Shown piece after piece: positions 786-51,000 of a DNA stretch of 64,000 bases; position 1 is the stretch's first letter, and the number at the start of each line of letters is the position of its first letter. Source of the DNA: Hemicentrotus pulcherrimus (taxonomy: Eukaryota; Echinodermata; Echinoidea; Camarodonta; Strongylocentrotidae); assembly GCA_003118195.1 (NCBI GenBank), contig BEXV01000051.1, positions 428,123-492,122 of the forward strand, in the 5' to 3' direction. The notes under the pieces were generated by a model. The model saw only the letters and a list, made by a program, of their open reading frames with translations. It searched no databases and was not told the DNA's origin. The position numbers were made by a program, and so were the translations under genes.

Positions 786-1822
786 TGCTTTGTGATGTTA
801 TGCTCTTTTGTCATGGGTTTTTAAGAAGAACATTCTGTTGTGCCATTTAGACATGCTAATTAATTATGAATAGTGATCACTTTAACAATTCAAAAAATGG
901 TTTAACATGTGTATTGATATGATGTATTGAGTACCAACATCAATAAAAAAAAAACCCCGCATTTTAAACAAATTGTATGGTATGCTGTTTTGTCATGCAT
1001 GGGGGCGATATTCTCAATAGCGGTTTCTAGCTGCATTGGGCTTGGGCCGCTAATGAATAAGGCACAATTATTAGGTGAATGAATGTATAAGAACCCCCAA
1101 TCTTCCCGTCCCAAAACATATCCCATAGTGCAACGCGCGCTTTTGCATTGATATGACGATATCCGGTCGATAGCGTGCTTGCAGCAGCCATGCCAGTGCT
1201 AGCTTTTGTGCATGTGATGTGTGTAGTGTGCATGCATGCCGCGCTGTTGAATCAAGGGAACGCTGCAGTTTGGGTGAGTTGGTTAAAACTACTTAATTAT
1301 GAATTAAAGAAATCTGATATGTGTGAGCAGTAGCAGTAACATTTTATGTTATTGAATGCAGGTGATATTATAACGGAAGATTACATTTTGAAATGATCAT
1401 AGGCTGAAGACTACTTTCGGAATCGGAAGTGCATGTGCAAGTGTGTGATTCGGCGTGGCGTGGACTTTGTCTTGATCTTGATGCCTCGTTACTTGATGTG
1501 TGTGTACAAAGAGATGTGTGTTTCAATGGTGCATTTTAGGGTTTTCCAAGTTCGCGCACATAAGAAAATTTGGAATGTGATATTCGATCCATGATATCTC
1601 ATATTCTACACAAAACTATTCATATCAAGTACGGTAGTCTATAACCTAATGGATAGCCAAATTTTAGTACAAGAGACTGAAGAGTCCAAAGGTCAGACTA
1701 GATAAATCATTTTCAAAAGAAATTGCGTCAAGAGTCGATATCCCTGGGGTTCTTTTATCGAAGTAGATCTAAGTACAAGATCAACGACATCTCAACCCTG
1801 TCCAAACTTGCATGCTAAGCAG

Positions 1823-2252
1823 TAGACCGAATTTTTTGTCTCTTTCGTTCGTTAGCCTCTTATTGTGGTACGGTCGGCTCTCTCTTTAGAGACCGAAACA
1901 GACCATACCGCGAGGTGTGCAAATCTATGTTGAAAGTCTATTTTAACTCTCGCAATTGGATGTCGATTTTGACCCATAATTTCTTAAAAATGGACCATAA
2001 AACGGATTATTTCAGTCAAGTTGGTAAGTGGAACTGAAAAAGTTAAGCCTGAAGCTAATTTACAATGTAAAATGCAGCAAATATATATGCTGTAAAAGGA
2101 GTAATTCGGTGATAAGTTTTGCAAGTTTGGTGTACTGATTTGCACACCTAACCTGCACACCTCGCGGTATGGTCTGTTTCGTTCTCTAAAGAGAGAGCCG
2201 ACCGTACCCCAATAAGAGGCTAACGAACGAAAGAGACGAAAAATTCGGTCTA
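1823..2252. mobile_element. Foldback MITE, 430 bp, with 9-bp target duplication
   Basis: The element begins TAGACCGAAT and ends ATTCGGTCTA. Inverted arms of roughly 90-100 bp run from both ends and include the near-identical blocks TCTTTCGTTCGTTAGCCTC and its complement. The 9 bases GCTAAGCAG flank it exactly on both sides (1814-1822 and 2253-2261), which marks a real insertion. It has no coding capacity, so it must have been moved in trans. A 9-bp duplication with long terminal inverted repeats resembles Mutator-like elements; that assignment is inference. A relative lies at 21310-22051. Confidence 0.88.
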
Positions 2253-3170
2253 GCTAAGCAGTAGGGGTGCTGGTCCGAGAATGAGAATTGTAGACATAGA
2301 TTTAAACAAGGATATCCTCATACACGTCAACAGATTTGCACCCTAAAAAAATAAGGATCGTCCATCAACGATTTTTTCTTTGGTGCTCTGGGGTTGTAGG
2401 GTTTCTGATCCGCTTACTGGCAATGCGAAAAATGTGTAATAAAATGTCCATTGCCCGTCTTCCTGCAAATTTAGTGCTCATAACATGATAGTCTTTCTGC
2501 TTTGTAAATGAGAAAATGCATCGTGGAGCATCATTGCAGAGGATCGGACGATCTATAATTTTTAGTACTGGTATGCAATTTGTCCTCGTTCACAAGGATA
2601 TCCTAGCTATTTGTTTTGCAAAACTGTCGCCAAGATGAGCGACAACTTGCGATACAATTCCTTCTTCCAAACCTTTCATATTGCAGGCCTGCATTTTATT
2701 CCTATTTTCCAGGTTATTCCCTTATTTTTTCTATTCTTCCCTGTTTTTCCCAATTTTCTTACAGGGGGGAATGTTGTTAGATGCCATTTTCCCCCAAAAA
2801 TCCTCTTTTTATTTTTACTCAAGAGAAGCATGGTTGAGGGAGAAAAATAATCTTTATTTTTTTTTTTATTGCTCACTATCACCCCTGTTTATGTTTAGAA
2901 CGCCATCTCAAGGGAACTTAAAGTGAGTCTATGGGCAGTGAAAAAATGAATACTTGGAATTCATTTTAAAACTTATTTTTTGGTCTTCAACCAGGTCAGG
3001 GTTATCGTCATCCCCCCAAGTCATATTAAATTGTGTAATGCAGGCAAGACTGCCAAGGGCATTTCCCTTGTTTATAAAGCTAAAGTAAATTGAAAAATAA
3101 ATCTTCTCGACTCGACCCTCTGTATTCTGAATTTCTAGGAGACGGAAGATTTTGAGAGATATCTTCCACC

Positions 3171-6100
3171 ATGGCCAAGAAGCTCTTTGTGGGGAACCTA
3201 CCCCAGGGGTGTACTAATGAGGATCTCAAGACCCTTTTCGCAACGATAGGACAGGTGGTAGAATGTGATGTTCTGAAGAACTATGGATTCGTGGTAAGTT
3301 TACTAAAAAGGAAGCTCCTTTGGCGATATAATTTCTCTTCTGGAAATACCATTGAGATGAAATTCAAACACGATAGGTGATTTGAAACTGGATCACTGTC
3401 TCCACCAATATCTGCAAAATTTGTACATATGTCTTTTGCAGATGTAAGGGACACTGACAATGTATCAAATTGCTTTTGCATTGATAAACATGTTATTTAC
3501 AACACAAACATGCATATCCAAACTATTTCTGACAGAGGATACAAAAGTTATGAATTTTTTAAGTTTTGATTTTGTGACGTCACTTTCGATATGCTCTTCC
3601 ATATGTTGTGTACTGTAATTTCCATAAATTGCCCCCTTTTCATGGTTCTCGATGAAGGAGTGGATCTATTTCATAGAGGCGTGTATAAAAGCATGTGTCT
3701 GATAATATATCGAATGCACAGGTAAAATAATTATGATTTTCCTGAGAAAATGGCAATTTATGGAATTTACAGTACACAACGTAAAGGAGAGCAGCTCGCA
3801 TGTGACTTCACAAAATTAAAACTTTAAAAATTCATAACTTTTGCATCCTTTGTCGGATTTTCGTCAAACCTTCACTGATATGTTTCTCTCACTGTTCTGC
3901 TTTTATTAAAAACAACTTAAGTTCAGGGTGGACTTTCCCTTTAATTGTTAAAGGACAAGTCCACTCGAAAAATAACTTACTTTCAATAAAAGCAGAAAAA
4001 TCCGACAAACCAATCAAAAAAAGTTTGAGCAAAATCGGATCACTAATAAGAAAGTTGTGAATTTTTTAATAAGTATGTAAAACTATGGAACAATGAGATT
4101 CTCAACAAAAATTGCCAAGATGGTTATCAGTTTGTGACGTCATGTCCTCATAACTTATCAATTACTTTACATAGTTTGATCGCATTAATTTCCCCTTTTA
4201 TCACCAAAAACCTGATTTCCCCATGCCTTTGCCCAGGTTATATGATTTGTATCATATTGCGTGCATGAAATTTCTCATGAATTTTGAAGAATTTATACTA
4301 TTTTCTGAATTTTGTACTTCATGATTATTAATTTTTATATAAATAGTTTATCAAAATTCATTTTTTCATGATTTAACCGCACAAAAATTACTCCTTATTT
4401 TTGCATCCACACAAACACATATTACTAACAATCTACCTTGGATGCTGATGTGAAGAAATAGGATTCTTAGGGTGAAAATAGGAAATTTGTATTGTTAATA
4501 TACAGAAAATAATTGGTGGATAGTGAGGACCATACATCACAGACTCATGAGTGAGTTGCCAATTTGTGTAGTGATTTTCAAAGTTTTTCACGTCAAAATT
4601 CATAACTTTCTTATTAGTTATCCAATTTTGCTCAAACTTTATTTGATTGGTTTGTCTGATTTTTCTGGTTCTATTACAAGTAAGTTATTTTTGGGGTGAA
4701 CTTGGGCTTTAAGTTTCCAATATTTGTGAAAATAAACCCAACTGAAAATAATATGATGTACAGGTAAGTAATGCCATTATGACAGTGTATCATGTTATTG
4801 CTTTGAAACTACCCCTCATACTGTGATGTAAATAGAATTCTTATCAAATGAACATCCATTTTGTCTCTTCTCAAAAATGCCATTTTTGTTTTTGTGTCAT
4901 TACCAGAAATATTCCAAATTTTCATTCACACATTCTATCCTTCCAGGTTTAGTGATATGTTTTATCTCATTCTTATTTGGATTCACATTTTAATGATTAG
5001 TTTGTGTAGTGGAAAATAGTTTAGAAAATATGTACTTGATATTGAGTTAATGGTTTTGAATTGTTTGTTGTAGCACATGTCCACAATTGAGGAAGCTTTG
5101 GAAGCAGTTAGCAAACTTGGTGGTCACAGATTGTATGGTAATGCAATCAGGGTACAGCACTCTACCTCAGGCGAACGACAAGAGCCGTAAGTCTCGTGGG
5201 AACGGTTTCATCACCACTTGGGAGCAGCAAAGTTTCTGACATTCATTGCATGGGTTCTATCCTGTCAAAAGGTGTATGCTCGGTTCGGAATTAAAACAAG
5301 CTGACTTCGGAGATCCAAAGTAACAAGTGATTGCATGGACCAGAAACTTTGCTGTTCTACCATGATCATTATATGATATTACAATCTCACCCGCGAAGTC
5401 CTCTCATTTACCCTGTTCTCATTCCAACAAATTGGCCCCTTTGTACTTTTCTTAAAGCACATGGCAACGGAAACTGAATGCCAAGAGGCGGTCACTCAGC
5501 TAGACAAGACTGATTTCATTGGCAACATTATCCAGGTCCAATTGTCCACATCCACAGTGCACAAATCAACTGGTGTGGGCAACAAAGGAGAATGCTTCCA
5601 GTGCGGTAAAATGGGGCACTTCTCTCGCGACTGTCATTTTAACGGGAGGTAAGCAGACCGCGTGTAACCCTGCACCTCAAGATTAATCTTAGCGTATGTC
5701 TCCATCGCGATATCGGTTCTTCATTTTCAGAAAAGGTCTTCTTTTTTCTGCCATTTTTATTGTCCATTTGTTAAAGGCCATGTACATGATAATGGCTAAA
5801 GTCACAATAATAAGGATCTACAGTGGTTGTTTTAATATTTTGATAGACATGATTACAGAGCTCTTTTAATTATAGTCAATCTACTGAACACAATTTCAAT
5901 TGAAATGTAAAAACAAAAGGAAAATTCAGTGAAGATTGTTTTATTTGTTATGAATGAATTAGTTATGTATTAAGCCTCTGTACAATATGTATAACAGGTT
6001 TATTTTAGTTACTATATTCTTGCCTTGATTACTTAAAACTTGTACAACAGTTTTAATCATGGCCCATTTTAGATTTACGAGTTTGAATTTCTACATACTT

Positions 6101-8615
6101 TATCTCGCTCTCCAAAGGTTAAGCCATGTCTTTACAATTCTTTTATATGATGCTTGCAATCATTACAATCTTTCAATCATTTATTTTTATCAATTTGTTT
6201 TGAAATAGTGGAGAAGGAGGAAGGGCCAGAGGACGAGGAGGTGGAAGAGGATTCAGAGGTGGCCGTGGAGGCGGTGGTTACCGTGGCGGTGATGGAGGCG
6301 GTCGAGGTAGTTACAGGGGCGGAAGAGGAGGTCGTGATCGAGCACCAGTAGACTACAAAGACAGAGATTATTATGATGGTTATGCCTCTCGTAGACAGCC
6401 TCCACCTGATTCCTACTATGATCGTTATTATGATGACTACTACAGGTATGAGTCAAATTTTAGGATACTGCATGATTGTGATTACATTAATTGTGTCAGT
6501 ATTGGTCTTATTTGCATTCATTTACATTAATGCTGGTCATAAACATGTAAGGATTGTCCTGGAACAAGTTCTTGTTTGGAATTGATTACTATTTTATTTT
6601 TATCTTTAATTTTGCCATTTTCTTGAACAAACTTCAAGTAGCCCCTTTTTATTTAGATGGATGGTTTATCTGATTTGATGTTTATTCATGAGTTGCTTTA
6701 TCTATGTTATTGAATAAAGACCTTTGTCAGGAAAGCATGAATTTACAGCTTTGTTATATTTCTATTTCCTAAACAGGCGTCCACCCCCATATCCCTACCC
6801 TCCACACTCTCGTGACCCGTATGCTCGTGACCCCTACAGAGCAAGGAGCCGAAGCCCCCCTCCAGCAAGGAGGCCCCTGACACCACCAAGGTACAGGAGA
6901 CGTGATTCCCCACCACCACCACCTAGGTGGGTACTAACAATACCAAATTACATTGCACCCACATAAATAACTTGATTGCTTTCAAGTCAAATTTATTGAG
7001 TGATATATAATGAATGTTTGACGTAAACGTGAGCTGGTCTGCTATGGTCCATTTCATTTCAAATATACAATTTAGATGCATTTCTAAAAGATTGGTCATA
7101 CATGTACAAAACACTCCTATTTTAGTACGTACACATAGAATGGCATAATTGTCACAAAACAGATTGGTACATGTACTTGACAACTGAAGGTTGTGCATTT
7201 TAATTCATGTAATTCATAGGCAATTTAGTGGATGTGTCCTTTACATTTGATAACATCATGTTCATTCATATTACAGGGACTTCTACGATTACCCTCCAAG
7301 TGACAGATATGCAGATTCCAGGAGCCAGTGAGTAGAACTTCCTGCCTTTATTATTCTAATTATCTTTTATAGGGATGTAGATGGTTTCATTCGAATCGCA
7401 TGCTCACATCATCCTTTCTTTTTCACTTTAGCTTTCTTGAAATTACCATGTATAAAATGTTTAGATATGTACTATCATTGAGCTGTAGTGTCAAAGTTTT
7501 GAGTCGCGTAAAGAGATTCGAAACAATGATGACTTCAGAATATATATTTGTGCTCATACTTAATCACTTCATTGAGGTGTCATATGAAGGGCAGAAAATA
7601 AACTTTCCGGAAATGTTATTTTCTCTTTCAAATTCAAATAACGTTCGACAAATGACTTTTGGGTACCCTTTCTTCAAATTGTTTTTAATTACTCATGCAT
7701 GAAATAGGCACCATATGAGTTGAATTAAATGGAAGATGAGGATCTAAGCTTCACAAACATGTGTCATTTATAAATTTTAATAGTAATTAAGTTATGATTA
7801 ATCATTGATAATTCCCAGTTTTCGTTTTTTCTGTGACGCACTGTATAAATATCTTTTTGATCATGTTATATGGCGAAGTGAGGAATATGTGTTTTTAGTG
7901 TAAACTTGTTCAGAATTCAAGTCCATCCTGATATAAGTTGGTTTTGTTAGAAGCAGAAAATTACAGGAATACATAGTACAATTTTATCTAAATTCCAATT
8001 GAAAATTTTGAAGTTATGGATTGTCAAAGTTTTCATCAATGAAACAGGAATTGGCAACACTGCTTATCTTGCAAAGTCCTCTCCCATTTGCTTTGAACAT
8101 AAATTTCATTAACTTTCAAATTGCTTCATACAGGGATGTAAAGAAACATCTGCACAATGTATATTAAGGATGCTTGTATGATTGAAAATTTTCTTTAGGG
8201 GAAATAGAGATTCCAGAATTTTTTTATTTACAGAACATTTGGGAGGGAACCTTGCAAAAATGTCACAGAGTTGCCAATTTGTGTTTGATCATAACTTCTA
8301 AATTTCATCATTTTCTTCTTTTTAATCATTGCTGTAACTTTTGCTGACATATTCCTCATTTTTCTGCTTCCATTTTTTCTGTTCATTATTTGAACAGGCT
8401 TTTAATCTTTTCATTTTGTAGAATTTGGCTTTACCTCCAGCATTTGACAATATAAACCCTCTGTGCAAAGTTCATATTTGGCGCAAGAATGAGGCGTGCT
8501 CCTCTATCATTATGTAATTCTTTTTTCCCTGTTGCGTGAAACACTCCTCCTCTACAGCTACCCACCACCAAGGCCCCGTTACAGTTCTCCGCCGCGACAG
8601 ACGTCTGCATTCTAA
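3171..8615 (+). CDS. RBM4/Lark-like RNA-binding protein (RRM, CCHC zinc knuckle, RGG and RS/PY-rich tail)
   Basis: Coding exons: 3171-3293, then either 5074-5186 or 5458-5648, then 6209-6445, 6777-6926, 7277-7327 and 8558-8615. With 5458-5648 the product is 269 residues; with 5074-5186 it is 243. The start sits in an ideal context (CCACCATGG). Exon 1 gives the first half of an RRM (RNP2 KLFVGNL, RNP1-like NYGFV). Exon 5458-5648 completes it and adds a CCHC knuckle (CFQCGKMGHFSRDC). The next exon is RGG-rich, followed by Tyr-, Pro- and Arg/Ser-rich segments. RBM4 and Drosophila Lark have this order but two complete RRMs; here only one first-half exon is found. Those relatives regulate splicing and translation in nucleus and cytoplasm. 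All junctions after exon 1 are phase 2, so cassette use is easy. Family assignment is strong; one-to-one orthology is not shown. Confidence 0.88.
3528..3944. repeat. Truncated foldback element in intron 1 of the RBM4-like gene
   Basis: Segments around 3528-3635 and 3746-3870 are inverted copies, for example GTGTACTGTAATTTCCATAA against its complement at about 3755-3774. The right side continues to a terminus GGTGGACTTTCCCTTTAA. The matching left terminus is missing, so the element looks 5' truncated. It abuts the foldback that starts at 3949. Confidence 0.65.
3949..4712. mobile_element. Foldback MITE in intron 1 of the RBM4-like gene
   Basis: The left end reads TTAAAGGACAAGTCCACTCG and the right end GTGAACTTGGGCTTTAA. 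Inner arms match as reverse complements (a GAAAAATAACTTAC block; the phrase TTGAGCAAAATCGGAT against ATCCAATTTTGCTCAA). Arms are about 130 bp and diverged. The ends share TTAA, so a TA or TTAA target is likely. No coding capacity is seen. Confidence 0.72.
5074..5186 (+). other. Alternative RRM second-half exon (RBM4-like gene, version 1)
   Basis: Acceptor TTGTAG precedes CACATG and the donor is GTAAGT. It encodes about 37 residues ending an RRM (HMSTIEEALEAVSKLGG, then a GNAIRVQHST strand). The entry phase is 0 and the exit phase is 2, exactly as in the exon at 5458-5648. Spliced to the RGG exon at 6209 it keeps the frame and yields a protein without the zinc knuckle. Spliced to the exon at 5458 it shifts frame and stops after about 15 codons. 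Reading through its donor gives an immediate TAA. Confidence 0.72.
5458..5648 (+). other. Alternative RRM second-half exon with CCHC zinc knuckle (version 2)
   Basis: Acceptor CTTAAAG precedes CACATG and the donor is GTAAGC. It encodes the last half of an RRM (ending IIQVQLSTS, very like the end of RRM2 in RBM4 and Lark) and a canonical C-X2-C-X4-H-X4-C knuckle. Phases are 0 in and 2 out. It lies 271 bases after the competing exon, and both begin with the same six bases. Confidence 0.82.
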
Positions 8616-10584: not shown

Positions 10585-10831
10585 ATCATCCACTCTCAAT
10601 GGCACTCAACCAGCTGAACATCTTGCAGCTGAAGCCCTTCACATGATCAAACATTCTGCTGGCCAGAGACCCCAGCATCGATCTGATGACTATGAAATGT
10701 ATGACATGAGCAGCCCCAGACCCAGGGGCAGTCCTCGTAGTCGAGGTAGTCCAAGACAGTCGTATCATCAAGCCAAAGCATACCATGGTGCCCTGGGCAA
10801 CCACAACATGTCCTACAGACCAGAGATGTAA
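10585..10831 (+). other. Probable alternative terminal exon of the RBM4-like gene
   Basis: An acceptor (TTAAATACAG) precedes an open frame of 82 residues ending in TAA at 10829-10831. The phase (2) fits exon 7277-7327 and the other downstream exons; joined to 7277-7327 it gives a 332-residue isoform. The encoded tail has an Arg/Ser/Pro/Gly segment (SPRPRGSPRSRGSPRQS) and ends in Tyr/Asn-rich sequence, in keeping with the style of the gene. An AATAAA at about 10987 could end the transcript; a possible donor near 10933 may instead lead further downstream. It could also belong to an unrecognised separate gene. Confidence 0.5.
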
Positions 10832-17516: not shown

Positions 17517-20500
17517 CTAATGAGGCATATCCCAGGGGTCAATGGAGGTGGGGTCAATAGAGTTGGGTCGCTTGACACGAGCATAAGGTCCAATCTTAGG
17601 GCTCATGATGAAATCCCATACTACTTTGGCAAAGGATTCATGAGTTGGCAGTGGGTCATAGTACTCCGGTGCGATCTTCCTGATCTGTATTCAAATGGAG
17701 AGAAAAAGAAGACAAAAAAATAATATATTGATAAAAAAGGAATATACATGTAAATACAATTTCAAATTTAATTCACAATACACAGTCTGCCCTTAGTCCA
17801 AAATCAGTTGTGCAATCAATCTAAAACTGATAACAAAAATGAATATCAACAGAATATCCTGTAACTAAAAAAAAAAGTTCCATTCAAAATACTACCAACT
17901 TGAACTTTGGTACAGTCATTCTTCTGTATGTATGAATCAGTTCATTGTTAGGTAATTTGAATAATAAGGAAATGAATACAGACAAAATGTTATTTTACCT
18001 AATATATTGAAAAATCAAATTCATTTAATAGTTGTCTCTACATAAGTTGGATCTGTTGGACCGCACCATAAAAAATATTTGCACAATAATGCAATGCCTA
18101 ATTATAGATGGAATTGATGACCTGATTCATACAAGGTTATAATTAAGCAAACTCACAAGTGGAAGTTTGTATCCAGGGATGTTGGGGAAATCATGGTGCT
18201 CCATGTGGTATCCCACATTGAAGGCAATGTAATTGAAAGGTCCATAGTAAGAGTATGTCTCGTGTCCTTCCTCATAGAGGTAGTGCTCTGAGATGAAGTG
18301 ACCAGCCAGAGGATGAAGTCCCATGGTCATGATAGACCCCAAGATAAGATAGATGTATGCCTTCAGACTGAAGAAATAGATGATGGCTGCATTGAAGACT
18401 ATCTGGATAGCCAGGTTGATGATCTCTAGCTTGCTGGGGACCTGGTCAAAATCAAATGAAAAAGCAAATAGGGTATATACCTTGATTCTAATAACATAAC
18501 AGTAATTGGCAGTACGTTATTACATAATTCTGGCTAATTACATGCATATTTCATAATCATCAGGGATAAAGGTGAAAATGAATTGGTCAAAGGTATTATT
18601 TAAATTATTGGGTCAATGACAGATCAATCCATTCAAACCTTGATTCACAATTTTGGGACATCAAGGTTACCAATCAAATTTAACACTGAAATAAATTAAT
18701 TTGGAAAAGTCATTTCAAAGCACTTGATGAAATATTCAAAAAATATTGGAATGTATGAGGAGCATTTTTGGGGGGTAATAAACAAAACATATTTTGCCCA
18801 ATACTTTATCAAGTGCAAAATATTTCAAAGAAAATATAACATGCGTTTTCTTTTTTTATAAAAGTTACGGTATTCACTTCACAGTACATTGAATAAAGTT
18901 TGCTCATGTTATGTGGACTATATATCCTGGGCTATTGTTGTGATCAATTCTCATAAAGAAGATTAACATACCTTAGGTCTCTTGATGAATGGTCTGAAGG
19001 CATAGAAAGCTGGCTGTAGGAGCATCCAGATAGCTTTAGTAAAAGGCTTTCTAAAGAGGATGCCTTCCCATTCTGATGGAATATCAGGATCCAAGGTGTC
19101 TTCACCCTACATAGTTTGGAAAGAGGTGATTAATTATATGATACATCTGGCATTGTAAAATCATAGGACATACCTGTAAACAAACATCAACGTAATTAAT
19201 AATGCCAATAATTGATTTCAAAAAACACATATTTTCATGAATTACCATGAAACTGCACAAATTTGAATGAAATGTAAATATTATATGAACATAACATATA
19301 CCAAATTTGCATGTACAGTAGTATTAAATAAAATATTATTGACAGTTTGGAGAAAAAAAATTGATACATTCTTTGGCATGGTGCAAAAGTGAACAAAGTG
19401 AACAAAGATGAAGTATAAAATAATTTCAATTCCAAAATTTTGATGCACGCATTTCATTTAGCATAATTTCTAGCAAATATTGTATACACCGGTAAGGGAA
19501 TTTGAAAATTCATCTCACATCACAGGTACGGGTATGGTAATATCAAAGTGCCTTTCCAAACCAAGGGTCAGAAGTTTAAATTCAAGATTGGTAAAGTAAA
19601 GATTGGTAAAAGCATTTAAACAATCTGTGTAAATAACAGGCATCATTCTGTGTCATCTTCTAAAATCTCTGGTTAATGACTTCTTTATTTCTACTAGCAC
19701 ATACAAGGCATTTCAAATTGTACACCTACAGGTGTAAGCCTATCTGTTCCGTCAATTTACCACTGACAGCACAGTTGAGAGGTAACTCAATGTACTGGAA
19801 GTTGATGTTTCCCTGAAGTCTGATCTTTACCTGATACTTGTGATGATCCTGGTGGTATCTCTTGAAAGACACTGAAATCGGTACACCTATCACCAGATTA
19901 CCAATGAATCCTATTATCCTGTTCCACATTGGTCTAGCATGTCCATACGCCAAGTTGTGACCAACCTCGTGAAGTGCCAGGGTCATGGAATGATTGACCA
20001 CCCCTCCAAAGCAGTAGCCTACGATGACAATGGTCATCCATGATTCGTTCCGGAGAAGGTATGATGTGATAACTTGGACCATAACCATGGCAAGCATGAT
20101 GTTTCCAATGTTGGTATCGTATCCCATTAGCCTCTTTATTTCTGGATATTTTTCTGAAAGAGTGAATATGTGATTTGATTTGAAAAAGTATTTATTGAGA
20201 AACCTTATCTCAGCTCAGCTCAAGAGCTATATTACAAGGATACATCATGCCTAGAATAAAAAGAATAAGGCGCCCATCACAGAGTTTGCTGAATTTAGCA
20301 AACTTCCTGCTTATGCGCCTTCAACATTAAAGGTACTATGTCCCATTTGCAGGCCCAAAAAATGAAAAAGTTAAATTCCAACTGCATTTGAAAGATAATA
20401 ACAATTTAGAACTTCCCTAAAAAAAGGTGGGACTTGAAAATGTCTTCAAGTGGGAAAATAATGACTATTAGTTGTCAAATCGACTTTAGGGCTATAGAGC

Positions 20501-22548
20501 CCAAAAGTAATAGTCTTGATTTTCAGACAATTGTACCGAATGGTCATACGTTTTATGCTGCGCAAAGATTTAATCAGTTTAATCTTGGCCATCACAAGAA
20601 GTGGGTTATTGATATAGACAAATGCTCATGTACCCTTTACAACTCGTTTCATATTTGTTATTACCAAAGAAGAAAAAAAGCCAGTCAGTCACTCAATAGT
20701 GTCTGACAGTGTAGTCTAGCAAGTAAACAAGTTTCCTTGCATAATATGAATATGCGGACACTTCTAACGTTTAAATTTCACAGATAGGACATACATTACA
20801 TATTTATAATTACAGCAAAGTTCTACAGCATTTGAGGTTGGCTGAAAAAAGGGACATAGTACCTTTAAGTGCTATTATCATAAAGTACGTAGGTCTATCA
20901 AATTGGCAACGCAAAAACAATGTTTTTTTTATACCATTGCTAACTCTTGTAAGACAGGGCTCGGCGTTTTTTTTCATGGTATTCACGGTAAACTGCCGCA
21001 CAGTACAATTGTATACCATAACAACGTTGGGTAGCGGCCGCGAGCCTGAAGATTGCGACTGTAATCTTAGATCCTCATTTAATCCTCAGTTAATCTAAGA
21101 AATTCATCATTACAGTTGCTATAAACTTTATACACGCACACCGGGACGCACCCGCACCCCAACGTCGGTACGGTATTCAATTCACAATTGTATCGTGCAG
21201 CATTTTGCCATAAATCCCATAATAAGTATTCGTTTTCAGGAAAAATACTCAAAAAAACGATGAGAAAATTGAAACGAAACAGGTAAGAAACATAGATCTA
21301 GGCTAGATCTAGACCAAATTTTTCTGTCTCTTTCGTTCGTTAGCCTCTTATTGGGGTAGGGTCGGCTCTCTCTTTAGAGACGGAAGACGACTATACGCAT
21401 TCCCTTGCTAACTCCATGGCCATTTATGGCCATATTTCTATGCCCCGAAAATCCCCCCAAATGTCATTTTACCTATTTCTTATTATTTGGTAAATTAGGC
21501 CTAGGCTATAATAAATTGGTTCCACTTACCAACTTGACTGAAATAATCCGTTTAATGGTCCCTTTTTAGGAAATCATGGGTCAACGACATCCATGTTGAA
21601 AATCTTGCAAGCCGTGTTTTAACTCTCGCTGTGCATGAAATCTCATTCGTTCTAGTCTACCCCGAAGGCAAAATGATGAAGGAAAAACTGTGATAGCACC
21701 ATTAAGAACGTGTAGCTCGCGCACAGTTTTTTCCTCATTTTGCCTTCGGTGTAGACTACAACGAATGAGATTTCATGCACAGCGAGAGTTAAAAAAAAAA
21801 CACAGCTTGCAAGATTTTCAACATGGATGTCGATTTTAAACGGATTATTTCAGTCAAGTTGGTAGATTTCTAGATCTAAGTGGAACTTTTGGGGGGATTT
21901 TTGGGGCATAGAAATATGGCCATAAATGGCCATGGAGTTAGCAAGGGAATGCGTATAGATCTAGATCTAGTCGTCTTCCGTCTCTAAAGAGAGAGCCGAC
22001 CCTACCTCAATAAGAGGCTAACGAACGAAAGAGATGGAAAAATTTGGTCTAGGCTAGATCCAACGACTTTTATTTCATCATTCATGATCATGATGATCAT
22101 TACATAGACTTTTTTTCTAGATCTAGTCTATTAGAATTTTTGAACAATTAACTGATGAAAATTTAGTCAATTTTTGGTATGTTTCGGTCTAGGGTATCTC
22201 CACACAAAAGTTTACAGGTCAAAGTATGGATATGATTCTGAATTACCGCCGTGTTATTAACCAAATAAGACGAAAGAGACAGAGATTTTCGGTCTAGATC
22301 TAACCTGGAAACTGTCTGAATTGCTTATTTCACACGACAGCAGACAGTCAAAGTTTGTGCGTGGGACTGTTGATTGTCTCGATTCGTTGGTCGATTTGTC
22401 TTGATATTATCTACCTAAGTTATTCTAGACTAATATGTTTTTCTACTACAAAAAAATAACACTTACTTAGCATCTCCTTTCTTCTTGTGAAGTGTGGTTC
22501 ATCTGTGTACACCCATGCAAAGTCTGATCTTGACACTGAGCCCCCCAT
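17517..22548 (-). CDS. degs1: Sphingolipid delta(4)-desaturase, DEGS1 type
   Basis: Five exons on the minus strand: 22548-22467, 20153-19831, 19106-18972, 18441-18157 and 17684-17517. All have GT-AG borders, and together they encode 330 residues (human DEGS1 has 323). The enzyme converts dihydroceramide to ceramide in the ER membrane, using a di-iron centre and electrons from cytochrome b5. The three histidine boxes are present at the spacing I recall for human: HEVGH at 89-93, HQDHH at 128-132 and HMEHH at 259-263. The N-terminus MGGSVS fits an N-myristoylation signal, as reported for DES1. Hydrophobic segments lie near residues 44-61, 66-82 and 183-218. The C-terminus (ending DPWDMPH) differs from vertebrates. 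The hydroxylase/desaturase paralogue DEGS2 cannot be excluded, but a single early-branching DEGS is the simplest reading. Confidence 0.96.
20331..20864. mobile_element. TTAA-flanked non-autonomous element, copy 1 (534 bp)
   Basis: It starts AGGTACTATGTCCC and ends GGGACATAGTACCT, with TTAA on both sides (20327-20330 and 20865-20868), in intron 1 of the desaturase gene. TTAA target duplications suggest mobilisation by a piggyBac-like transposase (inference). An open frame of about 88 codons from the ATG at 20440 to 20706 is kept in copy 2 but resembles no known protein. Confidence 0.85.
21310..22051. mobile_element. Long foldback MITE, 742 bp, with 9-bp target duplication
   Basis: The ends are TAGACCAAAT and ATTTGGTCTA, and the 9 bases GGCTAGATC flank both sides exactly (21301-21309 and 22052-22060). 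Almost the whole element is self-complementary: arms of over 300 bp run to a short centre near 21692-21723. The left arm carries about 60 extra bases (near 21465-21530). It shares its terminal 45 bases or so, and an internal block (TTATTTCAGTCAAGTTGG), with the element at 1823-2252. It lies in intron 1 of the desaturase gene. Confidence 0.88.
22262..22299. repeat. Solo terminus of the 9-bp-duplication foldback family
   Basis: ACGAAAGAGACAGAG followed by TTTTCGGTCTA matches the right end of the elements at 1823-2252 and 21310-22051. No matching left end was found nearby, so it is probably a deletion remnant. Confidence 0.5.
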
Positions 22549-23023
22549 TTTGGAAGAAATATTATCAAAAAAAGTCTCTTGATCACTCCGAAAATAAGCC
22601 ACACCTTCGATACGTCTAGTCTGCACTGCACTGAATTCGATAGCAACGATAACGGCGATAAGGCGCATTCTACTTTAAAATTAGGGGTGATAAATATTAT
22701 TTATTTAAAATGACTTTACCAGGTAGAAATTAAAACAATATTTGAAGTTCCAAAACTCATTTTTTGTATTCATTTTTAATTGGAAAAGCTAATTTGGTGT
22801 TTTTTGTTGGATTTTTTAAATTATTTATTTTATTACGCACAAGTTTCCTTCTCTGAACCCTACAATAGTAGTAGATTTAACCATGGGGGATTGCGTAAAA
22901 TCTAAAAATTACATCATCAGTACAGAGCATGCACGTATACCATGCATATGAGAAGGGCGGCATTACTGAAAGGGACACAGAGGCAACTCTCCAAGGGTGG
23001 CAGGGGCACAGACCCCCCCCCCC
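22549..23023. other. Upstream region of the desaturase gene
   Basis: This should hold the 5' UTR and promoter of the minus-strand desaturase. The sequence just upstream of its ATG keeps an open frame to about 22668, but the start chosen (MGGSVS) matches the family N-terminus, so the rest is read as leader. No TATA or other element is claimed. A C-run precedes the gap. Confidence 0.4.
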
Positions 23024-23607
23024 NNNNNNNNNNNNNNNNNNNNNNNNNNNNNNNNNNNNNNNNNNNNNNNNNNNNNNNNNNNNNNNNNNNNNNNNNNNNN
23101 NNNNNNNNNNNNNNNNNNNNNNNNNNNNNNNNNNNNNNNNNNNNNNNNNNNNNNNNNNNNNNNNNNNNNNNNNNNNNNNNNNNNNNNNNNNNNNNNNNNN
23201 NNNNNNNNNNNNNNNNNNNNNNNNNNNNNNNNNNNNNNNNNNNNNNNNNNNNNNNNNNNNNNNNNNNNNNNNNNNNNNNNNNNNNNNNNNNNNNNNNNNN
23301 NNNNNNNNNNNNNNNNNNNNNNNNNNNNNNNNNNNNNNNNNNNNNNNNNNNNNNNNNNNNNNNNNNNNNNNNNNNNNNNNNNNNNNNNNNNNNNNNNNNN
23401 NNNNNNNNNNNNNNNNNNNNNNNNNNNNNNNNNNNNNNNNNNNNNNNNNNNNNNNNNNNNNNNNNNNNNNNNNNNNNNNNNNNNNNNNNNNNNNNNNNNN
23501 NNNNNNNNNNNNNNNNNNNNNNNNNNNNNNNNNNNNNNNNNNNNNNNNNNNNNNNNNNNNNNNNNNNNNNNNNNNNNNNNNNNNNNNNNNNNNNNNNNNN
23601 NNNNNNN
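23024..23607. other. Assembly gap (584 N)
   Basis: Unknown bases. The left edge is a C-run and the right edge a G-run. Long open frames crossing it are artefacts of N. Confidence 0.99.
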
Positions 23608-23689
23608 GGGGGGGGGGGGGGGGACCGGCCCCATGGATCCGGTATGCATGTCTCCTAGCTCCAGAATTGCAGAAATCTGCATGGAAATG

Positions 23690-25917: not shown

Positions 25918-26398
25918 TAGGGGAGTTGTTTGTGCTATTTTTTTACTCAATCATTAAGTGTATAACTTTATGTTTTGGAAATGTTATCATATTTCGAACT
26001 TTATTATTGATATTTATTCATTGAAAGCTCATGAATGATGCTGAAATAAAGCGAAATTAAACTCAATGAAAGGAAGAATTTAAAGCACCATCATACGACA
26101 CACCTCTAGTCGTTTAGCTTGCTAGACTAGTTCATGCACAGTAGTTACACGCCGAAATAATGTGAGAGCGAAGATGATAGCATGGTGTACATCGTTTCGT
26201 TGATGAAACAGAATATGAAAATGCACACGTTAGCGTGCGGATGAGTGAGGGATGTGTAATGCATGCACACGACCACCGACGACTCATTCAGCACACCGCT
26301 AGCTTTGCGCAACTTGTTATCTTCGGTAGACGTTAACGTTAGAGGGAAACTCGCACACTCTTATACACGTATTGCAGCACTGAGATGAAACCGAAAAT

Positions 26399-27538
26399 AT
26401 GGCGGCATCATCATTGCTCGAAAAGATCGGAGATTTTTTAGAGTGTCAGATATGTTTGGACAGCTTCAGACGACCAAAGGTGTTGCAATGTCTACACACA
26501 TTTTGTCAAGATTGTCTGCTTCGTATGGCGCCTACTGTCCAAGACACAGTGGTATGCCCAACGTGTCGTGAGCAGACACCATTGCATGGAGAGGGTGTGG
26601 CAGACTTGAAGAATAATTTCGTGCTTTCTAATCTGTTGGATCTTGTCACCTCGATTCAGAAACCACTTGAAGACCTGCCATGTGGAGCACCCAATGGGAC
26701 TACGTACACCTGTTCAAACTGCGAGGATAACTCGCCTGCATCTTCACGCTGTCTCAACTGCTGCGAATTTCTTTGTGAAGATTGCGTGAAGGCCCATCGA
26801 CGAATTCGAGCTCTTCGTCACCATGTCATGAGAGATATTGAAGCATGGCTAGCAGCTGGACAGTGTATCCGTAGTCCAGGAGATGGTGAAGAAAATACCA
26901 ATCTTGTCTACTATTGCCCAGAGCACGATGACCGTGTGGTAGCAGTGTTCTGTGAAGCCTGTGAGTTGGCGATATGTAGTGAGTGTGGTCAAACCGACCA
27001 CGCTCGACCTCCACATCGTGTGGTGACCCTCGTTTTGGCAGCTGATCGAGAACGAGATCAAATCCGACTTATCCTGGCTGATTGCAAGCGCAAACTTGGC
27101 GTCTTCTCAACAGCCATCGAGTGCACTGTCCAGATTGCCAAAGACCTTCAGAGAAGATCTGATCGAGCTCAGAAGGATATACAGAGACGAGCACGAGAGT
27201 TCCTTACCATCATACAGACTGAACAGGCTCGTCTCATTAACACCCTTCACAAGACAAAGGAGGACAAGGAGAGTGAAATGGCGGCCCACATCGACGGTCT
27301 CCAGCGTACTGTGGATATATTACGTAACATGATCTCCATGGCAGAAGGTGCCATAACCTCTGATAGCAGCACGGCAACGGTGTTCTCTGCTAAATCACAG
27401 CTAACAACCCGTCGGCATGAGCTTGAAAACATTACAATTCTAAGCGTTCCTGCTGATCTCAGCTCCCTTAAATTTGAATTGAATAATGAATGCAGTTTTC
27501 AGGGGGATTTCCTAGGAAGTATTAAGTCTTTAAAATAA
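26399..27538 (+). CDS. Intronless TRIM-like protein (RING, two B-boxes, coiled coil)
   Basis: One uninterrupted reading frame of 379 residues. The RING has C16-x2-C19, C31-x-H33-x2-C36-x2-C39 and C53-x2-C56, consistent with E3 ubiquitin ligase activity. Two B-box-like zinc segments follow (about 106-146 and 168-210, the second CPEH...CEAC...CSEC...DH...H). A helical, charge-rich coiled coil covers about 215-345. The protein then ends without B30.2/SPRY, NHL or filamin domains, so it is an RBCC-only form, shorter than most TRIMs. The upstream 250 bases are CpG-richer and look promoter-like, and AATAAA occurs at 28017-28022. Intronless TRIM genes often arise by retrocopying; none of the cysteines seen is lost, so the gene looks functional. 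Target and pathway cannot be named. Confidence 0.93.
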   Translation: MAASSLLEKIGDFLECQICLDSFRRPKVLQCLHTFCQDCLLRMAPTVQDTVVCPTCREQTPLHGEGVADLKNNFVLSNLLDLVTSIQKPLEDLPCGAPNGTTYTCSNCEDNSPASSRCLNCCEFLCEDCVKAHRRIRALRHHVMRDIEAWLAAGQCIRSPGDGEENTNLVYYCPEHDDRVVAVFCEACELAICSECGQTDHARPPHRVVTLVLAADRERDQIRLILADCKRKLGVFSTAIECTVQIAKDLQRRSDRAQKDIQRRAREFLTIIQTEQARLINTLHKTKEDKESEMAAHIDGLQRTVDILRNMISMAEGAITSDSSTATVFSAKSQLTTRRHELENITILSVPADLSSLKFELNNECSFQGDFLGSIKSLK

Positions 27539-45000: not shown

Positions 45001-48000
45001 GTTTTGCGTTAAGTCAGAGTTTAAATGCATTTACATGTCTGTATTATTTTGTAGAGCTTATTGAAAAAAGGTATGTGCAAAAACTTGAGAAAATTATATG
45101 GATTTGATTGGATGACAAAGAATTGGACATGGACCTACACATATTCACAATGCACTACTCCTATATATTACTTGTAAATTTTGAGGAACATAAAGAACAA
45201 AATTACATACATTTGTATCAATTTTAACAAGCTTCAGGTATATATTTACATGTAAAATCGTAATGTTTTTGTCATATAACACATAGAATTGAAATCTGTA
45301 GATTCAAATTGTGTCTAATACACATGTACTATTTAAAAATTAAAATGATGCTGCACATTGGTTTGAACAAAAATGGTATTCATGTATACATGAATATGTA
45401 CATCTACATGTGTATTTACTACCGGTAAGTACTTGCAGAGAAATATAAGCTATACATACATGTACTATGTAAGATTTTTTTTTCAAATATAAGCCATAAT
45501 TACAGCCTGATATATTAGTACATGGTGGGTTAAAAGACATGTAAGTTGTGTAAAAGACTAGACCAACATATCAAACCAGCAGGGAATAACATGCTGGGCT
45601 TTAAGAATATCCCAACTGTTCTACCAAACAACAAAACACATCCATGCATACATGTACAGGACTTTGTAGAAAATCCTGTTTCATATCTGGAACAATTTAG
45701 GTTGCCATGGCGCTCTCCAAATCATATTACTTCAATCTTGCAGCAAGTTTGTTTCTCTAGGAACTTAAGATAGGGATTTGGATTACTGCGTCCTTTCTTA
45801 TGAGCTGGAATGTGAGCTGTTGTCATGGTTTTGTAAGTAACGGTGATTGATTTTGAGATCTTTAGGTAAAGTCTGACTGCTGGAGCTTTTCTTTGGTTTA
45901 GGCTGTTCTTCATGAATGCAGTAAGTCAAGAATACCAGACTGGCATGCAGGGCCTGTACAATCAACAATAGTTGCTATGTTGACTTTTAAAATAAATTGG
46001 TAAACCTTTCATAAATTCATGTGCATTTTATGCCATGGACATGACAAATGCTGGGTGTAGACAGAATTAATAACATTTTTGTGTGGTACCGGTAATCTAA
46101 ACGATTAATTACTTGAACTTTTTAATAATGATTATAATGTACAGTTATCTCTATTCTTGTTTTTGTCCTTATCTTTCAGGCATGGATGCCATTAGATCAC
46201 TGATATGTATATACATGTAAAGTAATATGCAATTCAGTTACCTATTTTGTCCAACCTATACATATGTCAGGAATTTGGAAGTCCACCACTATCATCCTTT
46301 ATAAAATTGATGTAGTTATACTATTCCTTCAAATATGAAGATCTAAAATTTATACAGACCCAGTTTTGGTTTGGGTTTAACAGAGACATGAAATTATTAT
46401 ATAAAAAAAGCAGAAATGTGTTAGAATTTTACGTGTTAAGGTTCATCCGTATTTCATGAGACATCTGGCATTAAATTTTAAATATATTGTTTAAAAATAA
46501 ACAAAAAATGAACAACATACAGACACCTTTATATCTAGAAACTTACCATTCACACATTATATGACAATCAAATGTACGTTTTAATTGAATTGAGATGGAA
46601 GCTATACAAAACAAAATATAGGAATCAAATATCTCTTCATCAAATCAATCATAAATGTAATACTTTCTGTGTTACCTTAATAATACCAAATTTGAGTATC
46701 TTACTACCTGATAATATATTGTGAAATGAGGTATATTCAATAATAATGATAATGATAATAATAGCTCACATTTATAATGCGCCCAATACTTTGTTTCTAG
46801 GTGTAGCAAGAAATAATGCTCTGAAGTTATACTCTGCAGGCTGCATAAATGCAGCTCTTGAGTTGATCATTTTTATTCATAAAAACCCACAAACAGATGC
46901 CATGATACAAGCTGATTGAACTAAATAACAGCCTAAATCAGGGCGTATATTGAGTTAATCTTCCCATCCACACCTGCGATATTGAATCATAATGAAAAAC
47001 ACCATTCATTTGCTTGGGCAGAGATCTGGGGGATAAACAGGTTAGAATGGGAAACAGGTGACCTGAAATAAATTGATAATCTTTTTGTATACTTCTTATA
47101 ATATGAACCAGAAGGCATATTTTGGATTATAGTTTCAAAAAGTACAATAAGTATATCAATGGAAATTGAATATAGCTGTGGTTTACATTAGATTGGCAAT
47201 TTAGATTTTATTTCACAAGATAATGTGTGCATAATTTATCTACAGAAAATGATATGTGATATAAGCCTCTGGATAGAGGCATGAATAAACTATATCCTCA
47301 TTTTTAATTGCTTCTATTTTGGGGTTATTAATGTCAAAGATCAGAAGCATTCATTTAGTGCTTTTTCAGTGAGAAAGAGAGGGATGGGAAGAAAGAATTT
47401 CTGATACATGTACTGATTGCCAGAAGCATATAAATAATGGTTGGCTATCTCTAACAGTTGAAGTTATGAAAAGATGTATAATTTTAATTTATGACATATG
47501 ATAATGCTTTAACCACAAGTCATTTATCATGCGATAATATTGTCTTGTTTGACAAGATGATGAAAAGTTTTGTATGAGTGGGTGCACTTCTATTTCTGGA
47601 TGTAGTACATTGTTTGCACACATGATAAAACTACATGCATGTACCAATGGGAGATAGTGATGTTGAATAGGGGGGGGGGGGGNNNNNNNNNNNNNNNNNN
47701 NNNNNNNNNNNNNNNNNNNNNNNNNNNNNNNNNNNNNNNNNNNNNNNNNNNNNNNNNNNNNNNNNNNNNNNNNNNNNNNNNNNNNNNNNNNNNNNNNNNN
47801 NNNNNNNNNNNNNNNNNNNNNNNNNNNNNNNNNNNNNNNNNNNNNNNNNNNNNNNNNNNNNNNNNNNNNNNNNNNNNNNNNNNNNNNNNNNNNNNNNNNN
47901 NNNNNNNNNNNNNNNNNNNNNNNNNNNNNNNNNNNNNNNNNNNNNNNNNNNNNNNNNNNNNNNNNNNNNNNNNNNNNNNNNNNNNNNNNNNNNNNNNNNN

Positions 48001-51000
48001 NNNNNNNNNNNNNNNNNNNNNNNNNNNNNNNNNNNNNNNNNNNNNNNNNNNNNNNNNNNNNNNNNNNNNNNNNNNNNNNNNNNNNNNNNNNNNNNNNNNN
48101 NNNNNNNNNNNNNNNNNNNNNNNNNNNNNNNNNNNNNNNNNNNNNNNNNNNNNNNNNNNNNNNNNNNNNNNNNNNNNNNNNNNNNNNNNNNNNNNNNNNN
48201 NNNNNNNNNNNNNNNNNNNNNNNNNNNNNNNNNNNNNNNNCCCCCCCCCCCCCAAAGATTAGATAATTGCTGTCATCATATTTCTGAATACTTGTTAATC
48301 CCTTCCAGTCAGTCGTGACTTATGAAGACTCCTGAATAGTATTTGATCATTTGTTATCATTATTCTAACTACGTATTCATAAGCACACATTGATTGATAT
48401 AATCCTATTCAATTTCTGCACTTGGAAAAAAATAGAAATTCATACATGTTTGTTAATCTACTGCAACACTCACATACCGGTACATGTTGGTATGTGAATG
48501 CAGTTACTCTTGATACTTTGATATCATTCATCTACTTCAGCTGCTCTTTTCAAAGGGAAAGTAAATGAAAATTGTAGCAATGTTTTACATTTGATCATGT
48601 GCTCTGCTGGAGGGTATGAATGGATGTGCAGAGAATGCATGTAACCTTGAAGAAGAAAGGTTTATTCTGAAGTTTTTGACTGTCCTTTAGATATGGAACA
48701 CATTTCAGTCCAACATTATCCAATGATCTGCTATACATGCAACAATATGTACCTAAGCTTTTAAAATCTTGAGAGCAAAAGAAAGTGTATGAAAATTTTA
48801 CATACAGGCATCCACATTCACTATTTTTATATTTTGCACATTGTGTGTTGCCAACTGTCACTGCTGTGATGAAACATATAATCTGATCTCCTACTGATGG
48901 TAGTCAAAGAAGACTGGGAGCTCACAGTAGTAATCGTTTCTGTCACGCTCCAAGCATCTCTGAAACCTGGTATTGAAAACCATTGAAGCAATCTAGTTGT
49001 GTTGACTCTAACCATGGTAGCATCTCGAGTTCTCTTGTAAATCTTTTGTCCAGGTTTTTAAACTTTCCCAACACTTAAAAGGCTTACCACTAACCTATGA
49101 ACTTCCAATCTTTTTGACAGTCTTGTTGTATACCGTGAATATTATTCCAGTATGTTTTATGGGTGTATAATAAACTTACAAGTTAGTTAGATCACTTCTA
49201 TCAGTATGATCCTACAAAATAAAGATTCTTTAAAAAACATATTGCACCACCTCATCTAAAATCTACCCTACATCCAATTGAAATCAAATTTGTCTATTTT
49301 GAGGGGGTATAGAAATTCAGTCCTGTCAGTACATTTTGTAGTCATGGAAATGTTATTACACTTCTCTTCTTGCTAATCTATATGCTCAAAGAAAATTTTA
49401 AGATAACTTAGAGAATATTTTTGACACTTCAGAATTCAGATTTGCTTGAGACCCTTGAGCAGTTTGGCTGCCTTTAATAGCTTTGTAGTCAGGAAGATGT
49501 TTTGACTTGAAAAGTAATCTGTGACTAAGCTCTCAAGTTTTGACCATAAAGAGCCTTATAATACATGATTGGGCACTCTGGATTATTACTCTTTACAAGG
49601 AAGCAATTTACAAAAGAATAAAAGTCCTTTACTTTACTTTTCTTTGCATAGCGAATTGGCACGATTTTTAATTCCACAAGAAAAAAAGGGGAAAAAAAAA
49701 CTTTCTTTGAAGCTTAAACAGTACCGGTACAGATAGTTTAAGACACCATCATATAACTTATTCATAAGGTTTCAAACATTGTCTTTAATAATTCAAATAA
49801 ACGGCCATGACAGAGCAGAAATTAATGATATTGTACAGTTTCATTCCATTCAATTATAACAATAACCCAGACAGCATAACATGCGATACAACAGAAGCGA
49901 CCTTTGACAGGGCAAGAGCAGTTGGGTGTAAAGAACATTCTGTGTATTGATCATGTTAAAGAATGTTTGTCTTTTGTCTTAGTCATGAAAAAGATACTCC
50001 TCCTTTCCCAAGCATTACTAAAGACATTAAAGGAGTTACATAATGCTGTTTGGAAGAGGATTTAAATGTTCATTGATATGTCTTACCCAAGTAAGCAACT
50101 CAGAGAACATGTGAATGATTGTCAAAACTATACTAATTAATTATTCCATAGATATTGATGATTGAAAATCATTTGTCATGTTTATTAACTAAATGTATGA
50201 AATGTACATGTAGTTTTCAAGAACTGCTATGTTTACAATGCTTTTTTAAGTGTATAGTGTATTATGTTGGTAACAAGTGATAAATCTTGTATATGATGTA
50301 CATGTAGAGGACAGAAAAGCACAATTGTTGTGCATACTATAGACAAGAATTTAAACACGTCTACAGAAGCTCTAAGAATAAATTAGATATTGATAGGGTC
50401 AAATATAAAAGTTGCAGCCCACAGTAAACCATATTTTTTGTTTATCTAGTTCTTTTAGTAATTGTTTTTCGTTTTTGATCTTTTGTTATTCCTTCTAGTT
50501 AATGAGAAGATACAAGGAATACAGACCCGTCCCATCATCAGAGCTCAAAGAATTGAAAACATTCATCTATGTCTACGCTTCTTGCAGATCAAGGGCTTTG
50601 ATACCAGAGGGGTCAATGCTGAAGGTACATATGACCATCTGTTTTTTTTTTCATTTGTTATGTATGCAGGTCTGAGTTACTATTGTATTAATAAGGTCTG
50701 CAAATACAGACTAATATGCACAGCATGCATCATACACACATGCACTGCATTGTATGTGTATAGGCACAGACACATCATCAGGACTGGAACTGAAGAAATA
50801 AAAGAGTGAACATGCACTCAGAGATAACTCTTTAAAAGATGACTTTATTGNTTAGTCTACATTTGAATAATGATCATTGTGACCAAATGTCAAAAATCAT
50901 CTTATAATCTCTATACAGGGCAAAGAGAACCCCCAAAAGATTTAATGATATTCCTTTAGTCAGCAATCAATCTGATGGTTGAAATTATGAAAAAGAAAGA

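Follow-up and report, generated by a model that had tools for sequence, protein, structure and literature searches.

Introduction

RBM4/Lark is a conserved regulator of splicing and translation, described as a protein with two RRMs plus a zinc knuckle. According to the account of RBM4 homologs given in PMC3602429, all of them have two RRMs and a knuckle, nematode ones excepted. The closest mechanistic precedent for the gene considered here is given by exons Ab and 3 of U2AF1 (U2AF35a/U2AF35b), i.e., alternative exons inside an RRM-like domain. In the part of PMC5224494 that deals with these exons, they are said to encode part of the UHM, and including or skipping both leads to stop codons and decay; seven residues only differ between them, located in RNP2, in a short disordered region and in helix A. 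Finally, PMC3041646 describes an RBM14-RBM4 chimera (CoAZ) in which RBM14 exon 1 is joined to RBM4 exon 2, and a fusion protein is reported.

The present gene comes from the sea urchin Hemicentrotus pulcherrimus. It lies in a stretch of 64,000 nucleotides, hereafter the window, to which all positions refer. Judging from sequence, it is likely that the pre-mRNA of this RBM4/Lark-family gene is spliced from exon A to either exon B or exon C, then to exon D, i.e., that there is one RRM with two alternative endings.

Exon map of the locus

The coding exons are the following.

3171..3293, + strand: coding part of exon A, 123 nt; start codon and RRM first half; phase 0 donor gtaagt
5074..5186, + strand: exon B, 113 nt; RRM second half lacking the knuckle (HMSTIEEALEAVSKLGGHRLYGNAIRVQHSTSGERQE); entered in phase 0 and left in phase 2
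5458..5648, + strand: exon C, 191 nt; RRM second half followed by linker and CCHC knuckle (CFQCGKMGHFSRDC); same phases as exon B
6209..6445, + strand: exon D, 237 nt; RGG-rich tail exon common to both forms
6777..6926, + strand: exon E; common Arg/Ser/Pro-rich tail; matches P0076
7277..7327, + strand: exon F; common tail; matches P0076
8558..8615, + strand: G1, candidate alternative last coding exon (basis: frame and acceptor only); ends ..HYPPPRPRYSSPPRQTSAF, stop
10585..10831, + strand: G2, last coding exon; ends ..NHNMSYRPEM, stop; matches the ends of P0001 and P0076

A first-pass annotation of this DNA had given the coordinates, phases, CACATG starts and frame effects of exons A, B and C; all of these are correct to the base. 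Exon A ends in phase 0 after codon 41 and carries RNP2 (LFVGNL) as well as RNP1 up to its sixth residue (KNYGFV). From the frames and the predicted structures of the Strongylocentrotus purpuratus proteins, its RRM portion corresponds to beta1-alpha1-beta2 and most of beta3. The splice sites of exons A to D are GT-AG, with boundaries ttgtag/CACATG..GCC/gtaagt for exon B, cttaaag/CACATG..GAG/gtaagc for exon C and an acceptor gaaatag/TGGAGA for exon D.

The C-terminal tail is of low complexity, as in RBM4/Lark, and is rich in RGG, RS and Pro (from translation). Full products including exons E and F have 243 or 269 aa via G1, and 306 or 332 aa via G2. G1 (8558-8615) and G2 (10585-10831) give different C-termini: the G2 version is the one present in S. 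purpuratus records, and the G1 tail (..YPPPRPRYSSPPRQTSAF) is, by eye, nearer to sea-star tails. Reading on past exon F gives an immediate stop.

Isoform records of S. purpuratus

Isoform X3 of S. purpuratus (P0001, XP_011671254.1, 303 aa) corresponds to A-B and isoform X1 (P0076, 329 aa) to A-C, with the same junctions; the difference in length, 26 aa, equals (191-113)/3. The arrangement goes beyond chance, since two isoform records have exactly these junctions, and the exon arrangement of the first-pass annotation is borne out by them. Between the window and S. purpuratus, 40/41 residues of exon A (97.6%), 37/37 of exon B and 62/63 of exon C are identical. It should be noted that the A-B record is titled PREDICTED and that the X numbering of both records is that of computed models; in the database searched here, the A-B record is sourced only from EukProt and the A-C record from NCBI, UniRef and nr. 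The exon pair is real in the sequence and in predicted relatives.

A comparison was also made of 210 RRM halves taken from 217 proteins, and the 30 highest-ranking pairs that combine similar first halves with dissimilar second ones were listed. In this list, X3/X1 of S. purpuratus alone has first halves that are identical and second halves that are less than 50% identical (47%). Two more pairs have identical first halves, with second halves at 73-77%, and three pairs at 3% are alignment offsets by one residue.

What the choice of exon exchanges

Pfam RRM_1 matches both A-B (59.6 bits) and A-C (55.3 bits). The knuckle follows the RRM and is detected in A-C only (zf-CCHC, 24.7 bits for a cut-off of 20.8), which agrees with the proposal that it is present only via exon C. 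In the AlphaFold2 model of S. purpuratus A-B, residues 1-70 have block-mean pLDDT values of 94-98 (per 10 residues) and the order beta-alpha-beta-beta-alpha-beta; in that of A-C, the values for residues 1-70 are 89-98, and those of the knuckle blocks are 65 and 77. Both S. purpuratus forms are thus predicted to fold as complete RRMs. The anatomy, the frames, the matching isoform records and the predicted folds of those records are all established at the level of sequence.

The exon junction falls within strand 3 and RNP1. We take the standard RNP consensus to place RNP2 at L5-L10 and RNP1 at K36-M43. The canonical aromatic positions, i.e., F6 in RNP2 and Y38 and F40 in RNP1, all come from the constant exon A, and the last two residues of RNP1 (H42-M43) are HM in both exons B and C. 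Because of these two features the core RNA face is not swapped, and the earlier idea that the choice changes the RNA-binding face has to be narrowed: the exchange concerns helix 2 and strand 4, together with the C-terminal extension that follows and the knuckle. Exons B and C have 47% identity over 34 aa.

The kinship with RBM4/Lark that had been suggested is upheld by the nearest RRM sequences and by solved structures, which are of the RBM4/RBM14 type. For A-B and A-C alike, the three nearest solved sequences are the RRMs of RBM14, RBM30 and RBM4B. A fold search against the PDB, which covered the A-B model, gave RBM30 (RBM4 family), RBM14, RBM39 and RBM30 as the first four matches.

Reading frame and exclusive choice

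Exons B and C adjoin and have equal phases, and exactly one of them gives an open frame, as in mutually exclusive exons: A-B-D and A-C-D are open. In A-B-C, 14 residues follow the B/C junction codon, then a TAG is met at nt 282, 145 nt before the C/D junction. In A-D, where both exons are skipped, a TGA occurs at nt 207, 153 nt before the D/E junction. The claim that exactly one RRM second half can be used is thereby supported, the restriction being enforced at least by the reading frame, with early stops in both A-B-C and A-D. Stops at such a distance upstream of a junction mark, by the usual rule, a transcript for nonsense-mediated decay. Since they lie 145-153 nt before the next junction, the A-B-C and A-D products should be degraded in this way, and judging by stop position only, inclusion or skipping of both exons leads to stops suited for decay, as for U2AF1 exons Ab and 3. 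The reading frame alone would be enough for wrong products to be non-productive and for the choice to look exclusive.

A short intron was also considered as a cause of exclusivity between B and C. The B-C intron has 271 nt, more than the usual rule allows for steric exclusion, and this cause is unlikely on account of that length.

The same stops are compatible with a second reading, in which exon B is a poison or decoy exon: inclusion of B with C, or of neither, would trigger decay and set the protein level, and the A-B protein would be minor. Both wrong products do carry early stops with downstream junctions, and RNA-binding proteins often autoregulate via decay-triggering exons. However, B alone keeps the frame, the RRM half for which it codes is complete and its fold is predicted with high confidence, and the identity of all its 37 residues in S. 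purpuratus argues in the same direction, so that a role of B as poison exon is considered improbable.

A candidate hairpin in the B-C intron

A structure of the pre-mRNA might also enforce the choice, i.e., a 17-nt stem in the B-C intron would block the joining of B to C. The stem is that of the following feature.

5222..5357, + strand: candidate RNA hairpin between exons B and C, with arms at 5222-5238 and 5341-5357 and a 102-nt loop

The arms (17 nt) are 94% complementary, with a predicted pair probability of 0.85-1.0, and no stem longer than 11 nt was obtained in 1000 mononucleotide shuffles. The relative P0008 is an open frame that reads through the B-C intron; there the arms have the same translation, but the loop differs. 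A hairpin and inverted repeats are moreover involved in the case of U2AF1 exons Ab and 3, as far as PMC5224494 presents them. On the other side, a perfect stem of at least 14 nt is found in 6 of the 226 bins of 271 nt of the window, its own bin included, and the total fold energy of the B-C intron is ordinary (z -0.40). The stem covers neither splice site, the neighbouring introns offer only single 10-11-mer partners at chance level, and the conservation of the arms in P0008 shows little because the rest of the intron is similar there as well. Enforcement by this stem is considered doubtful, the stem being kept as a candidate. No known RNA family was matched at gathering cut-offs. An inverted repeat (..TACTGTAATTTCCATAAATTGCC / GGCAATTTATGGAATTTACAGTA..) is present at 3590-3790, in the A-B intron upstream of exon B.

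Search for a second RRM or a second locus

The window was searched by tblastn with 13 family proteins, including two-RRM proteins of sea stars, crustaceans and fish. With these proteins, no RRM first half besides 3171-3293 was found, whether between B and C, in the A-B intron or elsewhere in the window; in particular, none was found between 5186 and 5458, in agreement with the first-pass annotation. In a few matches to exon B or C, the alignment continues into upstream sequence or across the B-C intron; the identity is low in these cases, most of which contain in-frame stops, and they are read as run-ons into intron sequence.

In the whole genome (414 Mb), P0076 used as query returned its own locus and a weak Gly-rich match (C516, E 1.2e-5); the two-RRM protein of Asterias (P0181) returned the same locus and a weak RRM (C521, E 0.0014). 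Among the 46 RRM_1 matches of the genome, none of the 8 compared resembles an RBM4 RRM. Two further loci (L004 and L006), which we take to be SRSF7-like with an RRM plus a knuckle, are separate from the urchin RBM4/Lark gene. The two RRMs of RBM4/Lark are not recovered here, there being one first half in the window and no other locus by the two protein searches, by which the gene appears as the only RBM4/Lark member found in the genome. Best candidates only were scored in these searches, exon by exon, so that a diverged RBM4/Lark copy could be missed.

Elsewhere in the window, positions 1819-2253 consist of two inverted copies with matching ORFs on opposite strands (1819..2037 on the + strand, 1984..2253 on the - strand); this resembles an element of the fold-back or MITE type, and part of it recurs near 21500. 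Exons at 18127-20214 (- strand) resemble what we take to be a sphingolipid delta-4 desaturase (DEGS) gene. A single open frame of 384 aa at 26384-27538 (+ strand) is presumably TRIM-like, from its RING and B-box look, and the calponin-homology and later exons at 38423-63900 (+ strand) presumably belong to a neuron navigator gene. Runs of N occur at about 22990-23630 and 47680-48250; these would be either gaps of the assembly or stretches that were withheld.

Number of RRMs and origin of exon B

The RBM4-type RRM core motif was counted in 217 proteins, a set which includes fragments and unrelated RRM proteins: 62 have one motif (23 with knuckle), 74 have two (60 with knuckle) and 81 have none. 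Records with one RRM plus a knuckle come from a crinoid (P0107), a hemichordate (P0029), amphioxus (P0123 and P0183) and a clam (P0129), those of the crinoid and the hemichordate being labelled isoform X2. Two RRMs are found in sea stars (P0079, P0080, P0181), vertebrates and arthropods. Molluscs seem to have a knuckle-free one-RRM protein (P0033, P0036, P0040, P0128) and, separate from it, a one-RRM-plus-knuckle protein (P0129), with different first halves. Seen across species and not within one, this pattern looks like a distribution of the two Lark modules over different genes.

The filtered RRM tree comprises 55 of 67 rows and 72 columns, the 12 others (long or odd rows, tunicates and Hemiscyllium) being left out. 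The row filtering and the tested grouping were chosen after unfiltered quick trees had been seen, and the urchin A-B and A-C rows have their first half in common. In this tree, P0101 and the nine echinoderm rows, among which are the two RRMs from each of three sea stars, make up a single clade (94/72). The constraint that joins the 16 RRM1 rows is rejected (p-AU 0.022, on 72 columns), the test being one that does not address sea stars in particular. In the unfiltered quick trees, among the rows listed, the echinoderm rows are mixed with a tunicate and with other rows and the picture is less clean.

The second-half tree (54 rows, Lineus being also dropped, and 32 columns) has little resolution. 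The branch of exon B is long (1.39 vs. 0.34 for C), and in the free tree B is placed with crustacean RRM2 (93/71). On these 32 columns, neither a sisterhood of B and C (p 0.48) nor a single clade of all echinoderm second halves (p 0.39) is rejected. B is matched best by further second halves of the Lark type, C being in 32nd place; in the reverse comparison, B comes 38th for C.

A recent duplication of C into B is disfavoured, there being no DNA similarity (the best local match is 8 nt) and the rank of C being 32nd; the placement of B with crustacean RRM2 does not speak for it either.

Class profiles were built from two-RRM proteins, of which 33 out of 73 were kept after removal of near-duplicates and of rows whose segments were incomplete, and leave-one-out assignment was correct for 61/66 first halves and 63/66 second halves. 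With these profiles, A falls into class 1 (90.4 vs. 81.2), B into class 2 (44.1 vs. 37.1) and C into class 1 (36.8 vs. 26.8). B is nearer to the RRM2 class and C to the RRM1 class, i.e., the opposite of a simple one-to-one mapping. Class-1 second halves are likewise present in 15 of 16 one-RRM relatives, including 6 of the 7 with knuckle, so that the profile assignment of B and C is to be regarded as tentative. C, with its knuckle, would be the ancestral half, and B a derived alternative.

These data bear on the suggestion that two RRMs collapsed into one, i.e., that an ancestral two-RRM RBM4/Lark gene lost one first half, leaving two old second halves as alternatives. Vertebrate RBM4, insect Lark and the sea-star relatives do have two RRMs. 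B and C are no more alike than unrelated second halves (C is 32nd of 208 others for B), so that both could be old, and the urchin rows are not cleanly joined to sea-star rows in the unfiltered quick trees, among the rows listed. Nevertheless, the echinoderm clade that includes both sea-star RRMs and P0101, together with the rejected grouping of all RRM1 rows (with the scope given above), may be taken as moderate evidence against a collapse; one-RRM-plus-knuckle records in the crinoid, the hemichordate and amphioxus, and a class test that fails to map B to RRM1 and C to RRM2, point the same way. The collapse is disfavoured and now appears unlikely.

Discussion

In the mechanism proposed, either choice would complete the same RRM at the intron inside RNP1. 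Splicing of A to C would give the RRM-linker-CCHC module of the family, followed by the RGG/RS-like tail; splicing of A to B would give a different helix 2 and strand 4 and no knuckle, the tail being joined directly. Products with both exons or with neither would be out of frame and subject to nonsense-mediated decay. Since the RNP core does not change, it is probable that both proteins recognize similar short RNA motifs via the RRM, and they may differ in knuckle-assisted binding and in partners docking on helix 2; such a binding difference, like any regulated use of B and C, is to be regarded as putative. That exon B is an unused annotation artefact, as the EukProt-only source of the A-B record might suggest, is very improbable given its exact splice signals, its open frame, the complete predicted RRM and the conservation of B.

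As a tentative extension, to which rather little probability is given, the knuckle-free and the RRM-knuckle proteins made from one RRM could stand in for the two RRM modules present in other animals; the exon choice could be self-regulated, and the ratio of both forms could set splicing or translation programmes in the embryo.

The comparison with known systems leads to the following points: (i) RBM4/Lark has in common with the urchin gene the RRM-linker-CCHC module, the low-complexity C-terminal tail and the nearest RRM sequences and structures, but it has two RRMs, whereas the urchin gene has one, with a knuckle made optional by splicing; (ii) for U2AF1 exons Ab and 3, as far as their description goes, no domain is gained or lost, whereas the urchin exons differ by 78 nt and one of them adds a zinc knuckle, and an exchange of RNP2 and helix A of the U2AF1 type does not take place, RNP2 being in the constant exon A; (iii) the CoAZ fusion brings in the RBM4 zinc finger, but, as it is described, it concerns two human genes and read-through or trans-splicing, whereas the urchin switch lies within one gene; (iv) SRSF7/9G8 likewise has one RRM and a CCHC knuckle, whereas the urchin RRM matches RBM4/RBM14 best. 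In the openly licensed papers searched, no title or beginning of an abstract mentions such a pair of exons or a switch of this kind in echinoderm RBM4 and, as far as the accounts compared here go, in none of these systems do two exons serve as alternative endings of one RRM, with the knuckle on one only. One exon choice that swaps half of an RRM and removes the knuckle, the RNP core being fixed, offers a natural test of the roles of helix 2, strand 4 and the knuckle in RNA recognition, and it carries the U2AF1 precedent of alternative exons in an RRM-like domain over to a different RNA-binding protein and a different phylum.
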